The translations under genes were made by a program, and so were the position numbers. Source: Gloeocapsopsis dulcis (GTDB lineage: Bacteria > Cyanobacteriota > Cyanobacteriia > Cyanobacteriales > Chroococcidiopsidaceae). Taken from it: a DNA stretch of 64,000 bases. The stretch covers positions 4,118,001 through 4,182,000 of the forward strand of contig NZ_CP119968.1 of NCBI RefSeq assembly GCF_032163395.1. The letters run 5' to 3'. Positions 9,682 through 17,688 of the stretch are shown in pieces. Position 1 is the stretch's first letter; each line of letters opens with the position of its first letter. Under the pieces are notes generated by a model. That model saw only the letters and a list, made by a program, of their open reading frames with translations, was not told the DNA's origin and searched no databases.

Positions 9682-10161
9682 TTGTTAGACGAACAAGCAA
9701 AAAAAACCATACTGCGGAAAATTCCCCATGGCTTATACATCTGTGGAGTAAAAGACGGCGAAGAAGTCAATGGTTTTACGGCTAGCTGGTTAATGCAAGC
9801 TTCCTTCAAACCGCCTTTAGTTGTCAATTGTGTCAAACAAGACTCTAAATCTCATGAAATGATCAAAAAAAGTGGAGTTTTTGCTATTAGCTTTCTAGAT
9901 GCTTCACAAAAAGAAGTTGCACAAAAATTCTTTCAACCACAGCGCCGTGTTGGCAATAAATTTGAAGATGTAGAATTTTATATTGGCGAAACTGGATGTC
10001 CTATTATCTCCGATAGCCTAGGCTACATCGAGTGTCAAGTTGTCGATGCAGTAGAAAAAGGCGACCATACAGTTTATGTTGGCGAAGTGATTGCTGCGGG
10101 TGTTCACCGTGAAGGTGATTCGCTGCGATTAGAAACTACTGGTTGGAACTATGGCGGATAG
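9682..10161 (+). CDS. flavin reductase family protein (FMN-binding split barrel)
   Basis: 159-residue flavoprotein domain of the flavin reductase (DIM6/NTAB) family, related to the C-terminal reductase domain of cyanobacterial flavodiiron proteins. Visible signatures are NGFTASWLMQASFKPPLVV, the flavin-binding core of the split barrel, and the C-terminal DHTVYVGEVIAAGV. I place the start at TTG 9682 because AGGAG (9669-9673) lies 8 nt upstream. The family begins about here, and the longer ORF from 9616 runs through a dispersed repeat. It probably reduces FMN or accepts electrons for a partner enzyme; the partner is unknown. Confidence 0.88.
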   Translation: MLDEQAKKTILRKIPHGLYICGVKDGEEVNGFTASWLMQASFKPPLVVNCVKQDSKSHEMIKKSGVFAISFLDASQKEVAQKFFQPQRRVGNKFEDVEFYIGETGCPIISDSLGYIECQVVDAVEKGDHTVYVGEVIAAGVHREGDSLRLETTGWNYGG

Positions 10162-10206
10162 CTAGCAGGTTTAGGAAATCCTCTTGACACCAGTCAACTA
10201 TTAAAC

Positions 10207-10881
10207 TTATTCAACTTTTATGGGTGCACCTGGTCGAGTAAAGCGAATTTCAGTGCGTCGCCTAGTAGCATCAGGGTTACGATTAACGGTTGCAAAGTTA
10301 CCATCTGGTAAAATTAATTGTGCTGCTGAATAAGCTCTAAAGTTCAAGCCTTGCAATCGATTACTTGTACTTTGGATATTACGTAATACTTGAACAACAG
10401 CAAGTGCCCGCATCAACCCTAAGTCAGCGTTGGAGCCTGCTTTTAGTTGATTTACAGGTATTGTTGCACTTGCTACTTTTTCTAAGTCTTGGTCAAGATT
10501 GCTAGCAGCATTACCATTTGCTTGACCATCAGTATGACCAATAATTTCTACTACATTAATTTTATATTGTTGCGTGTGTTGTTCTATTTGAGGAACAATT
10601 TTATTTCTTATGTATTGATCCATTATTACAGGAATTTCTGCACTACCTGAAGCAAAACGATACACTCCTTTATCTTCAATGACTAAAATTGGTGGAGGCG
10701 CGTTTTGTTTTCGAGTTTCAATAGCTTGGTTTAATCGTGCTTGGGTGTTTGCACTTCTCACAATAGCTAGTAGTAAAAATAGCATAGCTATTATAAAAGT
10801 ATTAGACATCAAGTCTGTAAAGGCAGACCAAATATTTAATTCTTCCTGGGGTTGATTGTGTCTACGAGAGTATCGCATCAT
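10207..10881 (-). CDS. MotB/ZorB-like OmpA-domain membrane protein
   Basis: Last gene of the four-gene tubulin-like operon. About 224 residues from the ATG at 10881 (another ATG follows at once, and the ORF opens at a TTG at 10899). A single membrane helix (about 20-42) contains an acidic residue at its start, in WSAFTDLMSNTFII (Asp23). That is where MotB, ExbD and ZorB carry the ion-binding Asp. The rest is periplasmic with an OmpA-like peptidoglycan-binding domain: EIIGHTDGQ, LMRALAVVQVL, and RRRTEIRF at the end. With the preceding MotA-like protein it should form an ion-driven stator anchored to the cell wall. The role is inferred from family and context only. Confidence 0.82.
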   Translation of the reverse strand: MMRYSRRHNQPQEELNIWSAFTDLMSNTFIIAMLFLLLAIVRSANTQARLNQAIETRKQNAPPPILVIEDKGVYRFASGSAEIPVIMDQYIRNKIVPQIEQHTQQYKINVVEIIGHTDGQANGNAASNLDQDLEKVASATIPVNQLKAGSNADLGLMRALAVVQVLRNIQSTSNRLQGLNFRAYSAAQLILPDGNFATVNRNPDATRRRTEIRFTRPGAPIKVE

Positions 10882-10907
10882 AATGCATACAATTAACAAA
10901 AATGATT

Positions 10908-12422
10908 TTATTTAGCAGCACCAGTAGGATATTGTTTGTAACTTTTGTCTACTACAAGCTGTTTTTCTAGGATTTTATTCAAGCGATAGCTTTCATGCTT
11001 AGCGTCACTGAAGTGCTTTGTAAAATTTGCTAAGTATTCTACAATGATTTGCATTTGTTGCTGTTGATTACTCGATTGGCTACTGATACCTGTAACTAAG
11101 CGATCGCTGAGATTCTTTAAGCCAACAGTCACTACTTGATTGTACTTATTAAGAGATTCAGCTAAAGTTTTTAGTTCCAACTCTACACGTTCAAAGCTAT
11201 CTGCTTTGTCCAAATTTTTCTGCTGAATTTTATCAAGTATTTCTACGGCAGATTGTAGCTTGTCGGAACCTTGATGTAACTGAGGTATAATTTTATCTAG
11301 AGATTGCTGATTACTCCAATGTAGTTCTAAAGCTTGAACTGTATTTTGATTGTGATGATTAATCTTGTCAGCTATATTTTGCACTTTATGATTAGAATTA
11401 ACTATTTCAAGTACAGCTGATTCAATTGTTGATACTGATTTAGATAAAACTTCAGTTGACTTATTAAAGTTTTTTTGAATACTATACAAATCTTTTGTAG
11501 CATCTGCAAGAAGTTGAGCAAAACTACTACGCTCAAACACCTGTGCTGTTTCTGCGAACCTAACTGTAGTTGTCTGAAAATCATCAACACTTTTTGAGAA
11601 AGTTCCAGATGACTCTTGAAAACCATTATAAACACGACAAGCAAGTTCGTTAGCCTGTTTATTGACATCCACAATTTCTTGAATTTTGGCTCCAAGCGAA
11701 GATTCCACTGCATCACGAACTGTTGTACCAAATCTACCTAAAAAATCTTTGAATTCAAAGACTAAGCGATCTACGGCTTTATCTAATCGATGATTCCCCT
11801 GAATCTCCGGCTGATAAATGTTGTCTAGATAGTCTTCAATTGAGACAATTAATTTGTACTTAGCTACACTTGTATTTTTAATTAAGTTAAATGCTGTTAT
11901 CAAAGCACTAAAAAATATTCCAGCTAAACTAGTAGCAAAAGCAATACTCATTGCTTGCAAAGGTTGTTGTAAGTTATTTAATAAACTGTCTATGTTATTA
12001 TCTAATTGTGCAACGTTAGTAATCGTTTGACTTAGTTGATTTAAGTTTAATGTAATACCTAAGAAAGTACCAAGCAAACCAAAGGCTAAAAGTAAATTAG
12101 GTAAAACTCGACAAAAATATTCAATTTGATCGTAAGAAAATAAACCAATTTTTTGGTAATTATAAACTTGTTCTATTAAAGCTGCTGTATTCACTTGATC
12201 GAGATCTGAGCTAGCTTCTTTAAAACGTAGTTCTAATTCTCTAATAATTTCTGGTTGTTCTCCTCTTTGATCGCGATTAATGAGTCTCCTCACACGGCTT
12301 TCTAAAAAGATAAGTTTGCTATGAAGAGTTGAGCGCAAAACAACAGTAGCTAAGGAAGGTAATACTATGACTAAAACTATGCTTAATAATAGTATGGGTG
12401 GTAAAGTAGATATAAAATGCAT
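10908..12422 (-). CDS. MotA/TolQ/ZorA-like membrane protein with long coiled tail
   Basis: 504 residues. Predicted membrane helices are at about 7-29, 106-126 (LPNLLLAFGLLGTFLGITL) and 157-181 (AMSIAFATSLAGIFFSALI). The last two match the core of MotA/TolQ/ExbB proton-channel proteins. From about residue 190 to the end a helical, coiled-coil tail of some 300 residues extends, presumably into the cytoplasm. This architecture recalls ZorA of the Zorya anti-phage system, but no ZorC, ZorD or ZorE gene is present here. It lies 26 nt upstream of the MotB-like gene, and a 27-bp palindrome precedes it. Strongly AT-rich. Name and function remain inferential. Confidence 0.8.
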   Translation of the reverse strand: MHFISTLPPILLLSIVLVIVLPSLATVVLRSTLHSKLIFLESRVRRLINRDQRGEQPEIIRELELRFKEASSDLDQVNTAALIEQVYNYQKIGLFSYDQIEYFCRVLPNLLLAFGLLGTFLGITLNLNQLSQTITNVAQLDNNIDSLLNNLQQPLQAMSIAFATSLAGIFFSALITAFNLIKNTSVAKYKLIVSIEDYLDNIYQPEIQGNHRLDKAVDRLVFEFKDFLGRFGTTVRDAVESSLGAKIQEIVDVNKQANELACRVYNGFQESSGTFSKSVDDFQTTTVRFAETAQVFERSSFAQLLADATKDLYSIQKNFNKSTEVLSKSVSTIESAVLEIVNSNHKVQNIADKINHHNQNTVQALELHWSNQQSLDKIIPQLHQGSDKLQSAVEILDKIQQKNLDKADSFERVELELKTLAESLNKYNQVVTVGLKNLSDRLVTGISSQSSNQQQQMQIIVEYLANFTKHFSDAKHESYRLNKILEKQLVVDKSYKQYPTGAAK

Positions 12423-12456
12423 ATAAGGTTCAGTATAAAAATTAAGCTGTCATAAC

Positions 12457-12483
12457 TAACAGGTGGGTAATACCCACCTGTTA
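12457..12483. repeat. 27-bp perfect inverted repeat between tubulin-like and MotA-like genes
   Basis: TAACAGGTGGGTA (12457-12469) and TACCCACCTGTTA (12471-12483) are exact reverse complements separated by one base. The palindrome begins one base after the tubulin-like stop codon in the transcribed direction. No T-run follows, so it is not a standard terminator. It could be an mRNA processing or stability hairpin, or a protein-binding site. Confidence 0.85.
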
Positions 12484-12484
12484 A

Positions 12485-15400
12485 CTAACGCAAAGGATAT
12501 TTAGCAATGATTTGTTGATACTCTTGTTCGTACTCTTCTTGAGTTAGAATACCTTCAGCAAGATCTTGCCTCAGAGACTCTATTTCTAAGCGACGTCGTG
12601 TTCGGTTATCTTCAGGTTCTACAGAAGGTTTAAGTAACATAACTTCGCCCGTCAAGATTAGAGGACTAGATTTGCTTTCATTATTATTTTTGCTAGGTAT
12701 TTTCTTCATGAATTTCTGCTGTATTTGCGCTTGAAAACGATTAATAATACCTTCTTTTGCTGTAAGAGAATCACCTCCGCGCGAACCAACGACATTTAAA
12801 CGGTAGGGATAATTCACATCACTATCTGGCAAACTATCTACTTGTTGTACAAACTGACGGAGTTTTGGTAAATAGTCTTCTTGCCATTGTCTGGGTTGAT
12901 GCTCGATTTCTTGCATGACTCCATCAAGTAAGTCTTGCAGTGCTTCTGCTTTACTTTTATAATCGATCAACTCCTGCAAAGCTTTTTTCCAAGCTGGATC
13001 GAGAGAAGCAGGGTAGTACTCTCCCCGTAAATCATCAAAGTATTGAAATTCAAGTTGCTGAGTTACTGGATTAGTTTGAATTAAATTCAATGCTAAACAA
13101 GGATAGAAAACATCTTGTAAATCCAGCATTTCTTTAACAGGTGGTGGAATAATCTCAGTAAAGCTTTCGCTTCGATGATTATGTAGTGGTGCATTACCTG
13201 GGTGATTTTTTAGTCTGACATAATGGTTTTTGAGCTTTTCTAAACCATCAATCAACCTCAGTGGAAAAGCAGCATATTCAGTAACGAGTAAAACTTTATC
13301 TTCGTTTTGAGTTGACTTAAGTTCATTGTCAGGAATTGCCAATTTATTTGTTAAAATTTCATGGAAATGCTGAACTTCTGGCTCGTCAGTATCTTTAAAA
13401 CCAATGAGTTGGCTTTTTTTAGCTGAACTATTGTGAAAGTAAGGTGCAGTAAGATTGAGCGGTAGTAGTGGTTGAGCTTCGCGGATAATTTGCCCTAGCC
13501 GAACTGGACGTTCTGATAAAGTTGGATACTTTTGATTGAAGCGCTTGATAACTGATTCTACAGTATCTGCACTCCGCGAACCAAATAATTGATTAACTGT
13601 CGTATCAATTTCGTGTTTGAGTTGTTTTGTATTGATATAGCTTTGTGTAAGAAGGATCGCTAAAGATTGTCCTTCACCAACAGGTGCTAAAACCTTTCGC
13701 GTAATTTGAATAGCTTGAGCACGATACTCTCTTTGGGGAAGTAAAGCTTCATAACAAGCTTCTATATCTTCCTCTGAAAATATTTCTTCACCACTCATCT
13801 CATCAGAGTTAGATTGTTTCAGGGCAATTTGATCTTTCTCGTAAGAAATTTTTAGTTCTTCTACTGAGCGACTTAGTGAAGTCAATTGACTAGCTCTTAC
13901 TTGTACGTGTTGTTGTAGAACTCTGACAACTTCTAAGGCTTCTAAAGCAATAGATAGACTCAAGTTTTGCTTAATAGCTGTTTCTGTTTCTTTGACAGCT
14001 TTTCTTGCTTCATCTTGAACGCGACTATTTTTATTGTTAAAAACAAGTTTGAATTCTTCTTCAATATCTTGAATTATCTTGTTAATCTGCGTCCACTTTT
14101 TTTCTAAATGCTCTAATGCACTAGCACTATTAATATCTTTGATTTTTCCCTCAATATCATATTGATATGCATTCAATTCAGATTGAATAGCATCAAGCCA
14201 GTTACGACTATTTGTAATCGAAAAGTATTTGTTATTCGGCTCAAGTATACTGTATAAATAACTATCGATATCTTCACATAGTTGTGTAATTAAGCTAGTT
14301 TTTCCTTTAATAACTTTTGTTAACCACGCTCCACGAGTACTTTCTGTATCTCCAGATTTGGTTTTATAAAATTGTTCGCGAAAGTCTCTTTGAAGTTGCC
14401 GTATCAAGCTAGAACGATCTTCTTTAGTCTTACACTCTGCAATTTTATTTTCTAGCTTTGACTTCCACATATTCATCAAAGCATTGAAGTTTTTTTCATT
14501 TTCAAGTGGTATTTCTTCTAACTTAGAAATCAAACCATTTTTTTGATCTAAGTTATTATGCCAATGATACTCAATGAAAAACTGTTCTAATAATTTTAGC
14601 GGATCTGGGCTTTGTCCTTCGCCTTGTAACCAAAAGTTAGCTAGCTTATGGCTAATTCGCGTGACTGTGATTTGTGAAATGCGATCGCGTGGAAAATAAA
14701 TTGCAGCTAACCCAAAAGTAAGGTAGTTTTGAGTATTTGGGCGTGGGTGATCGTCCTCCTGAATCAAATGTTGTGCAAAATTATCGCGCATTCCCTTGAC
14801 AACAGGTGCTAACTCACTCGAAAAATCAAGAGCAATTTTATTAGCAATAACATTACAAAGTTTTCGCTGCTTATCGATAACATAATTGCCTTGTTCTGTT
14901 GATTTGGAAACTAAGTAAGTGTAATCAAACGGAGGACGTTTCTCTTGAATATGAGTATCATATCTTTGGTCATAGCAAGCTTTAAAAGTTGTTCCAGGAC
15001 TTGAATAATAATCCAGTTCCATTAATGCTGCATAAGTATTGGCACACATATTAGGTGTATTGCCATACAACTCTGGACTAACTACTAAGTATCCAACAAG
15101 TTGCTTAACTTCAGGATAGGCATATCTTAAGCTATATGCCATATCTAGAAAAGTACCACTACCTGTACCACCACATAGTGAACCTACAACAATAATATTT
15201 AATCCAGGATCGACAATTAAACCAGATTGCTTTAGTAAATCTTGCTCGTGTCCCCGCGTACGTTGTTCAGCAATTTCAATAGCCTGCTTAATTTTTAAAT
15301 AGTTATGAAAGAATGATAGTCTACCAATTGGTCTAATTCCTTTTGCACCTTGATCAATTGCTTTAACATTTCTCAATAGTTGTGGTGGAAACCACTCAGC

Positions 15401-15757
15401 AATATGTGCATAAGGGCTGGGTTGATCGCCAATAGGATTACATTGTTCTAATCCTTGAACTAATTCAGTGATTTGTGTAGAAGTCATCGTAGCATTGACT
15501 TTTTCTGCATCTTGAAAACCCAAGTCAACACCTTGATATATATTTCCTGTTCGTAAGCTAACCGATTGTGTTGCTTCTTTGTCAGTATCTATATGAATAA
15601 AGCTAACTACAGGCAAGTTACTTAAATCTTTATAACGATCTACTATTAGTCGGCGAACACGCATTAAAACATCTTTACCCGTACCACCTAAACCAATACA
15701 AATAGTCCGGTTTATTCCTTGATATTGTCGGTCATTCATAGAAAATTGACTATACAT
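12485..15757 (-). CDS. large tubulin/FtsZ-like GTPase (Tubulin_2 type)
   Basis: 1090 residues. The N-terminal third is a tubulin-superfamily GTPase domain: CIGLGGTGKDVLMRV (T1-loop-like, residues 20-34), FIHIDTD (53-59), and the hallmark T4 loop GGTGSGT at 196-202. A long, charged, helical middle (about 390-760) follows. A C-terminal segment ends in a SHOCT-like motif (LRQDLAEGILTQEEYEQEY). It is far longer than FtsZ (about 400 residues) and resembles the large FtsZ-like proteins linked by Makarova and Koonin (2010, from memory) to vWA and OmpA-family genes in a predicted membrane-remodelling system. It lies 20 nt after the vWA gene. The cellular role is unknown. Confidence 0.85.
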   Translation of the reverse strand: MYSQFSMNDRQYQGINRTICIGLGGTGKDVLMRVRRLIVDRYKDLSNLPVVSFIHIDTDKEATQSVSLRTGNIYQGVDLGFQDAEKVNATMTSTQITELVQGLEQCNPIGDQPSPYAHIAEWFPPQLLRNVKAIDQGAKGIRPIGRLSFFHNYLKIKQAIEIAEQRTRGHEQDLLKQSGLIVDPGLNIIVVGSLCGGTGSGTFLDMAYSLRYAYPEVKQLVGYLVVSPELYGNTPNMCANTYAALMELDYYSSPGTTFKACYDQRYDTHIQEKRPPFDYTYLVSKSTEQGNYVIDKQRKLCNVIANKIALDFSSELAPVVKGMRDNFAQHLIQEDDHPRPNTQNYLTFGLAAIYFPRDRISQITVTRISHKLANFWLQGEGQSPDPLKLLEQFFIEYHWHNNLDQKNGLISKLEEIPLENEKNFNALMNMWKSKLENKIAECKTKEDRSSLIRQLQRDFREQFYKTKSGDTESTRGAWLTKVIKGKTSLITQLCEDIDSYLYSILEPNNKYFSITNSRNWLDAIQSELNAYQYDIEGKIKDINSASALEHLEKKWTQINKIIQDIEEEFKLVFNNKNSRVQDEARKAVKETETAIKQNLSLSIALEALEVVRVLQQHVQVRASQLTSLSRSVEELKISYEKDQIALKQSNSDEMSGEEIFSEEDIEACYEALLPQREYRAQAIQITRKVLAPVGEGQSLAILLTQSYINTKQLKHEIDTTVNQLFGSRSADTVESVIKRFNQKYPTLSERPVRLGQIIREAQPLLPLNLTAPYFHNSSAKKSQLIGFKDTDEPEVQHFHEILTNKLAIPDNELKSTQNEDKVLLVTEYAAFPLRLIDGLEKLKNHYVRLKNHPGNAPLHNHRSESFTEIIPPPVKEMLDLQDVFYPCLALNLIQTNPVTQQLEFQYFDDLRGEYYPASLDPAWKKALQELIDYKSKAEALQDLLDGVMQEIEHQPRQWQEDYLPKLRQFVQQVDSLPDSDVNYPYRLNVVGSRGGDSLTAKEGIINRFQAQIQQKFMKKIPSKNNNESKSSPLILTGEVMLLKPSVEPEDNRTRRRLEIESLRQDLAEGILTQEEYEQEYQQIIAKYPLR

Positions 15758-15777
15758 AGTTAGTTTTAGTTTATAAC

Positions 15778-16950
15778 TTACTTTTTAACTTTAATATTCA
15801 AGTAAAAATCTTCATGCTTATCATTTGGACAATTAAGTTTAATAGTATTTCCAGTCACCCGAGTTCTTTTATTAACTTCCCTACCTTTCCATTCAATTGG
15901 TGCTAACTTAGTAGGTATCAAATAAAGTTGATTTCCTTGACGTTCTAAATAAGCTCTTATTTCTGCCCCAGGACATACAATCTCATCAATACAATTAGTA
16001 TCTCCTTGACCGATAGCAAATGATTTACCTGGTAGTAGTGGACAACATTCTTTCTCATAATCTTCTAAATCTGCAATAACAGAAACTCGCCATTTTTTAC
16101 GTAGTCTAAAAAAGTATTTAGCTAAAAAGGAAAGAGAAGTTGTTCCTAAAAGCAAAACTACAATAGGTAGCCATAATTGTCCAAATAAATAAGAGTTTAC
16201 TTTACAAAATTCTTTGTTGTTTGGTGCAATTGTACAAAATTCTTGTACATTTGCTTCGATATCAACTACAGCAAGTTTATATTCTCTAGAGTCTGCTGTT
16301 TGAATTAGTAGTTCTCTTTTGTTTAAAGGTAAAGCATCAATCCATGCTCGTCGTGCTTGACTTGGTAAAGAATCATTTACTCGAAAAAGACTATCTGCTG
16401 GAGTTTCAATCCACTCGTTACCTGATTGAGTCAGTAGAGGAGCCTCTGTAATCCAAATTACTGACTGAAATTTAATTGGTTGATTTTGTTGTAGGCGATT
16501 TTGATTGAGCTGGGCTAATCCTTGATATATAGTCAGTTCTGCTTGCTGAATATCTGTATTCTGCAGCTTTAGATTGGCTGATAATGGAATTTTTTGTAAG
16601 ACCTTATCTATATTTTCTTGATTTTTTGTATTGAAATTAATAGGTATTCCTAAAGGATATAAATTTGATGTTTCTTCTGATTTAACTATATTTGACGCAA
16701 AAGGAACAACATATACTGAATCTCCAGATTTCAAGCTGTCTTCAATAATCTGTCGTAAACGAATACGTCCTTCGTCATTAATTCCTACACTTTCAGTTAA
16801 ATCAATTGCTAATACTACATCACGTTTGTCATGAATATGAGCAACTATCTGTAAAGCTGTTTTTTGTTGTGATTTTAATTCTTGCCCAGGAGTTACTTTT
16901 ATTCCAGATGCTATTAATATTTGATTAAATATAATTTTGTTTGCAAGCAT
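15778..16950 (-). CDS. von Willebrand factor A domain membrane protein
   Basis: First gene of the tubulin-like operon; 390 residues. A vWA-like domain occupies about 1-240, with the metal-site motif varied to D50-L-T52-E-S54 (canonical DxSxS) in VVLAIDLTESV. One membrane helix is at about 258-280 (LWLPIVVLLLGTTSLSFLA), followed by a basic stop-transfer (RLRKKWR). This suggests that the C-terminal 110 residues are cytoplasmic. That tail is beta-rich, and its GKSFAIGQGDTN and TRVTGNTIKLNC segments suggest an FHA-like sandwich. No signal peptide was seen, so vWA export would need a reverse-anchor topology. An in-frame stop just upstream excludes a long N-terminal extension. Confidence 0.75.
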   Translation of the reverse strand: MLANKIIFNQILIASGIKVTPGQELKSQQKTALQIVAHIHDKRDVVLAIDLTESVGINDEGRIRLRQIIEDSLKSGDSVYVVPFASNIVKSEETSNLYPLGIPINFNTKNQENIDKVLQKIPLSANLKLQNTDIQQAELTIYQGLAQLNQNRLQQNQPIKFQSVIWITEAPLLTQSGNEWIETPADSLFRVNDSLPSQARRAWIDALPLNKRELLIQTADSREYKLAVVDIEANVQEFCTIAPNNKEFCKVNSYLFGQLWLPIVVLLLGTTSLSFLAKYFFRLRKKWRVSVIADLEDYEKECCPLLPGKSFAIGQGDTNCIDEIVCPGAEIRAYLERQGNQLYLIPTKLAPIEWKGREVNKRTRVTGNTIKLNCPNDKHEDFYLNIKVKK

Positions 16951-17339
16951 TTTAAGATCACAAAGTTGTTAAAAAATAATTAAAAATGCAACTTCACTCA
17001 TCCAATAAATAATAAGCTTCTATGCATCCTTAAAAAAGAGGACATATAACAGTAAAAACTTAAAATAACTTTAGCTTGCCTTTAACTGAATATATAAGCG
17101 AAATCACACTGATAAACTAAATTAGGCAAAATTATGAAAATAACTAATTTCAGTAGTATCACTGTAGTCAGTAGGTATATGTTTGCTTGTAAAAATAGCT
17201 GAGTTTAATGTTTATTAAATAGTTATAAACACGTTATATTATGTTTTTGTAGTTAGTATGTGATAAGTTTTTTCCCAGCCAACTTTGAGACTTTGCAACT
17301 GCACAGCTTAATGTCAGCTTAAAAAAATATTAAGAGTTG
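16951..17339. other. AT-rich flank of the replication origin
   Basis: Very AT-rich sequence between the vWA gene start and the DnaA-box cluster. It is a natural candidate for the DNA-unwinding element and must also hold the promoter of the divergent tubulin-like operon. No ORF of coding character was seen. Confidence 0.5.
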
Positions 17340-17346
17340 ATTAGAT

Positions 17347-17541
17347 TGTGAAAAACTTGCAGATTTCTGGGGAAAACTTTGGGAAAATCTGTGGAAAACT
17401 CTTCAGTTTACGGGGAAAACTACTAATGAGTAAAAATACTGTGTGAAAAACTCTTCAGTTTTTCCACAAGTTTTCCACAGCCAATAAGGGTTAAAATTGA
17501 ACTAAGCAAAGGGTTGTTAAAGTTTTTCCACAGTTTCCACA
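17347..17541. other. probable chromosomal replication origin (oriC), DnaA-box cluster
   Basis: Exact TTTTCCACA boxes on the + strand lie at 17460-17468, 17471-17479 and 17524-17532, and on the - strand (TGTGGAAAA) at 17390-17398. One-mismatch boxes lie at 17347-17355 and 17442-17450 (TGTGAAAAA) and at 17533-17541 (GTTTCCACA). Further GGGGAAAAC-type half matches lie between. The cluster sits about 150 nt upstream of dnaN, a known oriC location in several cyanobacteria. Genes on both sides are transcribed away from it. Box density is far above chance; GC skew was not computed. Confidence 0.8.
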
Positions 17542-17688
17542 GCCCCTACTACTACTGTATATAAAAATCAAAAATATCTTAGTAGTCTTTATGCAACAGA
17601 TATGGTCAGCAAATGGTACGATAGTGCTTCTGAGCTAGATAAAACTTAAAATGCATCTCAAACCTTTAACAAACTCACGAACCTCCTG

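Follow-up and report, generated by a model that had tools for sequence, protein, structure and literature searches.

Gene organization of the locus

We analysed a 64,000-nucleotide window of the Gloeocapsopsis dulcis genome (contig NZ_CP119968.1, positions 4,118,001 to 4,182,000; "the window" is this whole stretch) together with the list of its open reading frames (ORFs) and their translations. The subject is a four-gene operon on the minus strand, at positions 10207–16950 of the window. Sequence comparison and structure modelling identify its products, with high probability, as a ZorA/ZorB-type motor pair, a tubulin-family GTPase-like protein and a membrane protein made of a vWA domain, a transmembrane helix and an FHA-fold domain. 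This combination suggests an as yet unstudied machine connecting the cell wall with a filament inside the cell. In the order of transcription the genes are:

15778..16950, minus strand: predicted vWA-transmembrane-FHA membrane protein, 390 residues (ORF, conservation of adhesion-site and Cys residues, AlphaFold, Foldseek)
12485..15757, minus strand: FtsZl1/Tubulin_2 GTPase-like protein, 1090 residues (PF13809, AlphaFold, Foldseek)
10908..12422, minus strand: putative ZorA-type motor subunit (MotA-like), 504 residues (PADLOC ZorA, core-only profile)
10207..10899, minus strand: putative ZorB-type motor subunit (MotB-like), 230 residues (PADLOC ZorB, PDB profile, invariant residues)

The gaps between consecutive genes are 20, 62 and 8 base pairs (bp). 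A first-pass annotation, made from the letters of the window, had described four minus-strand ORFs in tight order, and all four were recovered in place with these gaps. Chance ORFs are ruled out, since the same gene order is kept across many genomes.

The motor pair

The MotA-like protein has hydrophobic segments at residues 10–28, 106–124 and 160–178, followed by a tail some 300 residues long. The Pfam family MotA_ExbB matches it at an E value of just 0.59, while PADLOC ZorA matches at 5e-12; the best ZorA score, 38.4 bits, lies below the curated cut-off of 100. The commonest PADLOC ZorA model matches 40 of 41 MotA rows at 1e-5. The match list of a full-length profile weighs less, because the tail region picks up unrelated coiled coils as well. 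With a tail-free profile of 29 MotA-like cores, the five best solved structures are all ZorA: 8vvn (1.2e-7), 8qyy (3.7e-4), 8qyk, 8qyh and 8qyd (0.0067). In the first of these the complex is type I ZorAB (PMC11890865). No MotA, ExbB or TolQ structure was matched by this profile up to E = 10.

The MotB-like protein is matched by PADLOC ZorB at 4.7e-7, and its best PDB profile match is 8vvn_B (2.6e-5); the similarity is modest. It has a single transmembrane segment with Asp29, invariant in 30 of 30 rows, and an OmpA-like domain with R164. The Pfam OmpA match of the window protein (0.0032) is under the cut-off; at E ≤ 0.1 the family is found in 29 of the 30 rows, with 5.8e-5 as the best value. 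In the larger set the transmembrane Asp pattern lies inside the first 70 residues in 70 of 73 MotB proteins, and the motifs GHTD (121–124) and RRRxExRF (213–220) are present in all 73. Matches of the MotB profile to PomB structures are confined to the OmpA-domain part. Zorya defence needs the ZorB transmembrane Asp, peptidoglycan-site residues and the ZorA tail (PMC11890865); in our own reading the MotB residues listed here correspond to those Zorya residues.

By these profiles the closest relative of the motor is ZorA/ZorB, rather than flagellar MotAB, ExbBD or TolQR. A flagellar MotAB or Tol/Ton motor is rejected on the match list of the MotA-core profile. The ZorAB-like motor core and the MotB/OmpA-like protein with an intramembrane Asp, both proposed by the first-pass annotation, were thus recovered, and the assignment is now sharpened to ZorA/ZorB over MotAB.

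The length of the MotA tail varies. Measured from the transmembrane motif, which was found in 69 of 82 ORFs, its median is 401 residues (quartiles 368–451, maximum 922), with 351 in the window; the shortest values are broken ORFs. The tail gene of Microcystis wesenbergii (locus L180, 8980–10188) contains four 300-nucleotide copies with a period of 303 bp and 95–100% identity, and two near relatives of this locus stand at 508 and 584 residues.

The tubulin-like and vWA-FHA proteins

The 1090-residue protein matches PF13809 (Tubulin_2) at 1.7e-101, with 340.5 bits against a cut-off of 27, and is the sole PF13809 match in its own genome. By sequence it belongs to the FtsZl1/Tubulin_2 family and is GTPase-like, which bears out the earlier assignment from the GGTGSGT motif at residues 196–202. 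The stretch S193–G201 is invariant across the 49 rows of the alignment, the window among them. The T4 glycine loop, GGGTG(S/T)G, reads CGGTGSG here, the first Gly being Cys in 49 of 49 rows.

An AlphaFold2 model from 49 sequences reached a predicted local distance difference test score (pLDDT) of 85. Foldseek returned CetZ1 (4b46) as the best match, with an E value of 6.5e-6 and a template modelling score (TM-score) by target of 0.54; tubulins came next, and there were 229 matches at E ≤ 0.001, over about 360–380 aligned columns. The model supports a tubulin fold in the N-terminal part, followed by a long helical middle and a mixed C-terminal part. About 700 residues, mostly helical and with no assigned family, lie outside the tubulin fold. 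A PDB sequence search with the tubulin profile gave seven matches, none from the tubulin family; it was the structural search that recovered the fold anticipated earlier.

The 390-residue membrane protein consists of a vWA-type domain (about 43–217), a transmembrane helix within about 250–284 and an FHA-fold domain (about 287–390). Its metal-ion-dependent adhesion site (MIDAS) reads D50-x-T52-x-S54 plus D133. Across 55 rows DxTxS and D133 are kept in 55, T132 in 50 and D169 in 53, the window having E169. Cys239 and Cys249, adjoining the transmembrane helix, are invariant (55 of 55). The window protein has no VWA match in Pfam; at E ≤ 0.1 eight of 34 rows match VWA_2, the best at 3.6e-4, and a PDB sequence search with the vWA profile gave no matches.

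An AlphaFold2 model of this protein (55 sequences, pLDDT 87) shows a Rossmann-type N-terminal domain, a single long helix and a beta sandwich. Foldseek matched it to FHA domains at 4.4e-4 to 8.4e-4, including the KIF1A tandem (4.4e-4) and Rv1747 (6.3e-4); against the single-domain FHA chains 6ccd, 3po8, 2lc1 and 3oun the TM-score by target is 0.61–0.70. TM-scores by query are low (0.2) because every match spans one domain only. Another match is inter-alpha-inhibitor heavy chain 1 (5.9e-4), which we take to be a vWA-bearing protein. An FHA-fold domain C-terminal to the vWA domain is supported by the model; in it R332 is conserved in 53 and R337 in 55 of 55 rows. Mean charge around the transmembrane helix is +0.35 before and +2.98 after it, and is higher after it in 47 of 55 proteins. 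This bias, together with the MIDAS and the paired Cys residues present in all 55, points to a vWA domain in the periplasm and an FHA-like domain in the cytoplasm.

Conservation of the four-gene unit

A GTDB scan with the tubulin alignment gave a named set, the best 80 of 183 relatives. The titles are cyanobacterial throughout, and the set is biased towards close kin of the query. All four proteins are encoded at 70 of these loci, and six of the ten incomplete ones are contig ends (L122, L123, L152, L160, L177, L178). The order vWA, tubulin, MotA, MotB on a single strand is kept at 67 of the 69 loci testable under stricter limits (exceptions L126 and L138), with median gaps of 18, 91 and 58 bp.

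Sampling was also made even, by a draw of 339 cyanobacterial genomes, 69 of which have a PF13809 match. Among the 71 loci examined from this draw, stronger matches only, 70 have the tubulin ORF, 39 a vWA partner and 35 all four genes; two of the four vWA loci missing a member are short contigs. The remaining tubulins have other neighbours, mostly with no motor alongside. At 1e-15 the vWA profile is found in 41 genomes and the MotB profile in 55. Lists compared by eye show the operon-type tubulin in 40 of the 41 vWA genomes; the last one (G235) has broken vWA and MotB pieces only. MotB occurs without vWA in 15 of 55 genomes. The co-occurrence of four genes expected by the first-pass annotation is thereby upheld for vWA with tubulin and for gene order, and fails to the extent that MotA–MotB pairs also occur alone.

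Distances in the four protein trees correlate across 60 loci at 0.75–0.94, part of which is due to shared descent. The correlation is highest for vWA and tubulin (0.936) and lowest for those involving MotB (0.754–0.777).

At two loci (L072, L094) genes from two small families, of 113 and 82 residues, lie between vWA and tubulin. In the nearest relative, Gloeocapsopsis crepidinum LEGE 06123 (L135), whose tubulin is 88% identical, the tubulin gene is split at about 10001–13266 into ORFs of 560 and 437 residues.

Related operons were also found outside Cyanobacteriia. On Deinococcus plasmids the tubulin gene is followed by a MotA-like gene and then by one for an OmpA-domain protein, an order read in three records, and tblastn placed the Deinococcus MotA in the same four plasmid records in which at least 80% of that tubulin is covered. 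An IS630 element separates tubulin from MotA in D. radiophilus, whose motor pair matches PADLOC ZorA at 7.1e-7 and ZorB at 8.5e-8. Deinococcus and cyanobacterial MotA cores match with 95.9% probability (E = 6.4e-9). A distant genome of the same phylum (G047, 74% complete) encodes a protein with a DASGSM motif and no Pfam match, then the tubulin, four genes, MotA (7.7e-14) and MotB (2.4e-8). Plasmids of Thermus oshimai (L183) and Meiothermus taiwanensis (L189) carry vWA, tubulin, a protein of 677–679 residues without assignment and BrxL; in Meiothermus an HmaC-like ATPase (1154.9 bits) lies upstream. This form of FtsZl1 operon is possibly a defence-linked branch of the FtsZl1 family. On plasmid p2 of Azospirillum sp. 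TSA2s (L184) an FtsZl1 gene lies near two caspase-family and two OmpA-family genes.

A proposed motor-to-filament machine

We propose that the operon encodes a single envelope-spanning machine in which the motor is coupled to a filament, and give this reading a probability of roughly 0.4. The MotA-like and MotB-like proteins would assemble in a 5:2 ratio into an ion-driven rotary motor, which the OmpA domain of MotB would fix to peptidoglycan and from which the MotA tail would extend into the cytoplasm. The vWA-FHA protein would serve as a transmembrane adaptor, its vWA domain periplasmic and its FHA-like domain cytoplasmic. On a disturbance of the wall, whether phage entry or other damage, MotB would grip peptidoglycan, ions would flow, and the tail would turn or shift. 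That motion would start or position tubulin-family filaments, which the FHA side would tether to the membrane, and the filaments would brace, reshape or seal the inner membrane at the disturbed site. Up to the tail such a machine would resemble Zorya, with the filament in place of a nuclease as output arm. A stricter version we regard as rather unlikely: a Zorya-like sensor with a filament for its output, in which the rotary ion motor acts directly, across the cell wall, to drive or nucleate the tubulin-family filament and repeat expansion tunes the length of the rod. We know of no bacterial example of a motor-coupled tubulin machine.

Support for a single machine is drawn in part from comparisons between genomes: the order kept in 67 of 69 loci, the correlated tree distances, the co-occurrence of vWA with tubulin and the tubulin–MotA–MotB order of Deinococcus all point to it. 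Also counted in its favour are the ZorA structures that head the core-only match list, the MotB motifs kept in all 73 proteins, the adhesion-site, Cys and charge pattern of the vWA protein and the variable MotA tail.

Several observations weigh against it. Four of the 80 named tubulin loci lack a complete motor: L104, L172 and L173 show none in the available sequence, the tubulin standing there without its partners, and L127 encodes MotB behind the tubulin with MotA missing. Among 20 stretches, 11 MotA–MotB pairs (L240–L248, L251, L255) have neither tubulin nor vWA in the stretch, so the motor is separable and has a use without the filament; the genome of L255 carries a full operon elsewhere. 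For the membrane protein encoded upstream in Deinococcus, expected to be vWA-like, no relation to vWA could be shown (1.9% probability). The topology of the vWA protein is only inferred, since a clear signal peptide is lacking: 2 of 55 proteins pass the limit on N-terminal hydrophobicity. Compared by eye with the consensus, the phosphate-binding (phosphothreonine) residues of FHA domains appear to be missing, and the contacts between proteins in the machine are predictions from sequence and single-protein models. Finally, FtsZl1 proteins that form no filaments are considered possible, though less likely, by Makarova and Koonin (PMC2875224).

A tree built from MotA core and MotB together (83 rows; a quick method with midpoint root, long branches flagged) puts the solo motor pairs at four positions: three lie among the operon rows and one on a deep branch. 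Since three of the four groups nest among operon pairs, loss of vWA and tubulin is the simplest explanation of their origin.

That one widespread FtsZl1 form comes with a ZorAB-type motor and vWA-FHA adaptor of its own offers a concrete, testable mechanism and connects work on tubulins with Zorya. A natural comparison is provided by Nostocaceae, where genomes that have the four genes at a given site exist beside others that lack them there.

Genomic setting and alternative readings

The strongest alternative, which we still hold to be doubtful, is a dedicated anti-phage system in which the ZorAB-type motor senses phage entry and a tubulin polymer is the effector, acting for example by membrane damage or sealing or by trapping the phage genome. 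Besides the kinship of the motor to ZorAB, with its 40 of 41 rows matched by the commonest ZorA model, the distribution favours this reading. The operon is patchy, with vWA in 41 of 339 genomes, and remnants and split genes are found. In Nostocaceae clean presence and absence at one site, as of a cassette, are observed. The site is marked by a gene of 856 residues (L051, 2168–4738), which 142 of 145 Nostocaceae genomes carry; its product has no Pfam match at 0.01, and it often adjoins what we take to be a psbE-like gene. Of its 30 best loci, 6 have MotB alongside, 9 have a gene of 81 residues at a distance of 155–520 bp and no MotB, and 15 have neither or are unclear. In one genome (G284) broken MotB and vWA pieces lie beside the 856-residue gene, a stretch where an ORF scan found no MotA or MotB ORF, and the operon is elsewhere. 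The G+C content of the operon is below that of its coding flanks in 59 of 60 loci, by a median of 6.6 percentage points, and in the window it is 34.6% against 42.9% for the remainder.

Further points in favour of defence are the plasmid location of the Deinococcus form, the BrxL genes adjoining the Thermus and Meiothermus FtsZl1-vWA operons, the latter with an HmaC-like gene too, and the conflict roles that the main text of PMC7159879 predicts for tubulin-vWA-GTPase operons. Flanking proteins (150 of 207 non-redundant ones, at most three per side of complete loci) matched 121 PADLOC models at 1e-10 and control proteins 47, the controls being 150 of 276 proteins from 19 arbitrary stretches of other genomes with the operon or a PF13809 gene. 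These figures count models, not proteins, and many models are variants of one family; in our own reading the matched families listed are mostly of one kind per set, methyltransferases in one and kinases in the other. The difference is not decisive, because models are not tied to proteins and 25 families are listed.

Against a defence role, no nuclease and no ZorC–G were found by PADLOC among the four proteins or the ten nearest window proteins, and these ten neighbours match no PADLOC defence model at 0.001. The first-pass annotation had likewise seen no ZorC, D or E. In Nostocales the tubulin tree agrees with taxonomy (38 rows; 2 changes, where shuffles give 23.8), and inheritance there looks largely vertical; the method was a quick one, and some NCBI orders are not clades. 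The MotA of the window has no match among 72,556 plasmid records, no plasmid place covers 80% of its tubulin, and none of 21 viral candidates was confirmed. The single phage match is an unannotated record of 9.8 kb, at 33% query cover and 22% identity. Plasmid or virus cargo is ruled out for the cyanobacterial form by these searches. The evidence on defence is mixed, with accessory, patchy and low-GC behaviour set against largely vertical descent in Nostocales and the finding of the cyanobacterial form on no plasmid or viral contig in these searches.

A machine with a housekeeping or morphogenetic task, along the lines of the Makarova–Koonin proposal, that serves membrane remodelling or vesicle or cell-contact work with no infection trigger, is improbable. 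The largely vertical descent in Nostocales would suit it, as would the dnaN-like gene beside the operon in the window and a conserved neighbourhood, at least two genes of which lie near the operon at 16 of the 80 named loci; this neighbourhood includes a sigma factor and putative psbO and psbE genes. Many of the host genera are filamentous or colony-forming, a possible link with growth habit. Against this reading, the operon is missing from most genomes, relatives with the same site included, its G+C content is low, copies are split or decayed, and Chroococcales rows of the tubulin tree are not clustered (14 rows, 9 changes against 13.1 in shuffles).

Least probable is a unit of only vWA and tubulin with MotA–MotB as an older, separate ion motor travelling along: the 11 solo pairs, the ranking of the correlations (vWA–tubulin first, MotB last) and the motorless surroundings of most other cyanobacterial PF13809 loci would fit it, but order and strand are kept in 67 of 69 loci, the motor occurs with FtsZl1 in Deinococcus and G047, and three of the four groups of solo pairs branch from within the operon rows, a pattern that looks like loss.

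The flanking intergenic region

The operon is separated from its divergent neighbour, which we take to be a dnaN-like gene, by the following stretch:

16951..17688, no strand assigned: intergenic sequence, likely site of the operon promoter

A promoter scan found 25 promoter-like sequences against 26.7 expected from shuffles, and a terminator scan found none. Four exact copies of TTTTCCACA, which we take to be DnaA-box-like, lie at 17390–17532 (143 bp), the expectation for the whole window being 0.93. This cluster is possibly a replication origin; GC skew shows no lasting change of sign near it.

Comparison with known systems

In the main text of the Makarova–Koonin study (PMC2875224), FtsZl1-vWA-OmpA operons were predicted in 2010 to be a membrane-remodelling system, and a cyanobacterial FtsZl1 clade with vertical descent was reported. 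The operon shares with them the tubulin family, the vWA partner and the OmpA-domain partner, and the earlier suggestion that it is a variant of that system holds, both partners of FtsZl1 having been found. That text reads the OmpA genes as membrane- or peptidoglycan-binding and contains neither MotA, TolQ, ExbB nor the word proton; the MotA gene may be among its unnamed families. The four-gene unit lacks the P-loop GTPase and Ser/Thr kinase, which the same text calls frequent, not universal.

With Zorya (PMC11890865) the operon has in common a ZorA-type core with a long tail and a ZorB-type protein with a transmembrane Asp and peptidoglycan motifs. It differs in scoring below the curated ZorA cut-offs and in having the tubulin and vWA-FHA proteins instead of ZorC–G alongside, by which Zorya proper is ruled out. 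The systems of Kaur et al. 2020 (PMC7159879) likewise have tubulin encoded close to extracellular vWA proteins, but they are from Firmicutes and actinobacteria and have GAP1 GTPases, and MotA, TolQ and ExbB do not appear in the main text. The vWA-tipped Exb/Tol-type force transducers (PMC12204202) share a periplasmic vWA domain tied to an ion motor and, as described there, have no tubulin. A full-text literature search, with most subscription journals outside its scope, gave among the matches listed no paper joining FtsZl1 tubulins to MotA or Zorya, and no functional test of FtsZl1 tubulins was found in it.

The operon is, then, Zorya-like at the membrane yet a member of the FtsZl1 group and not of Zorya. 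FtsZl1-vWA-OmpA operons had already been predicted; new, as far as the papers searched show, are the identification of the ZorAB-type motor, the FHA domain and the constancy of the four-gene unit.

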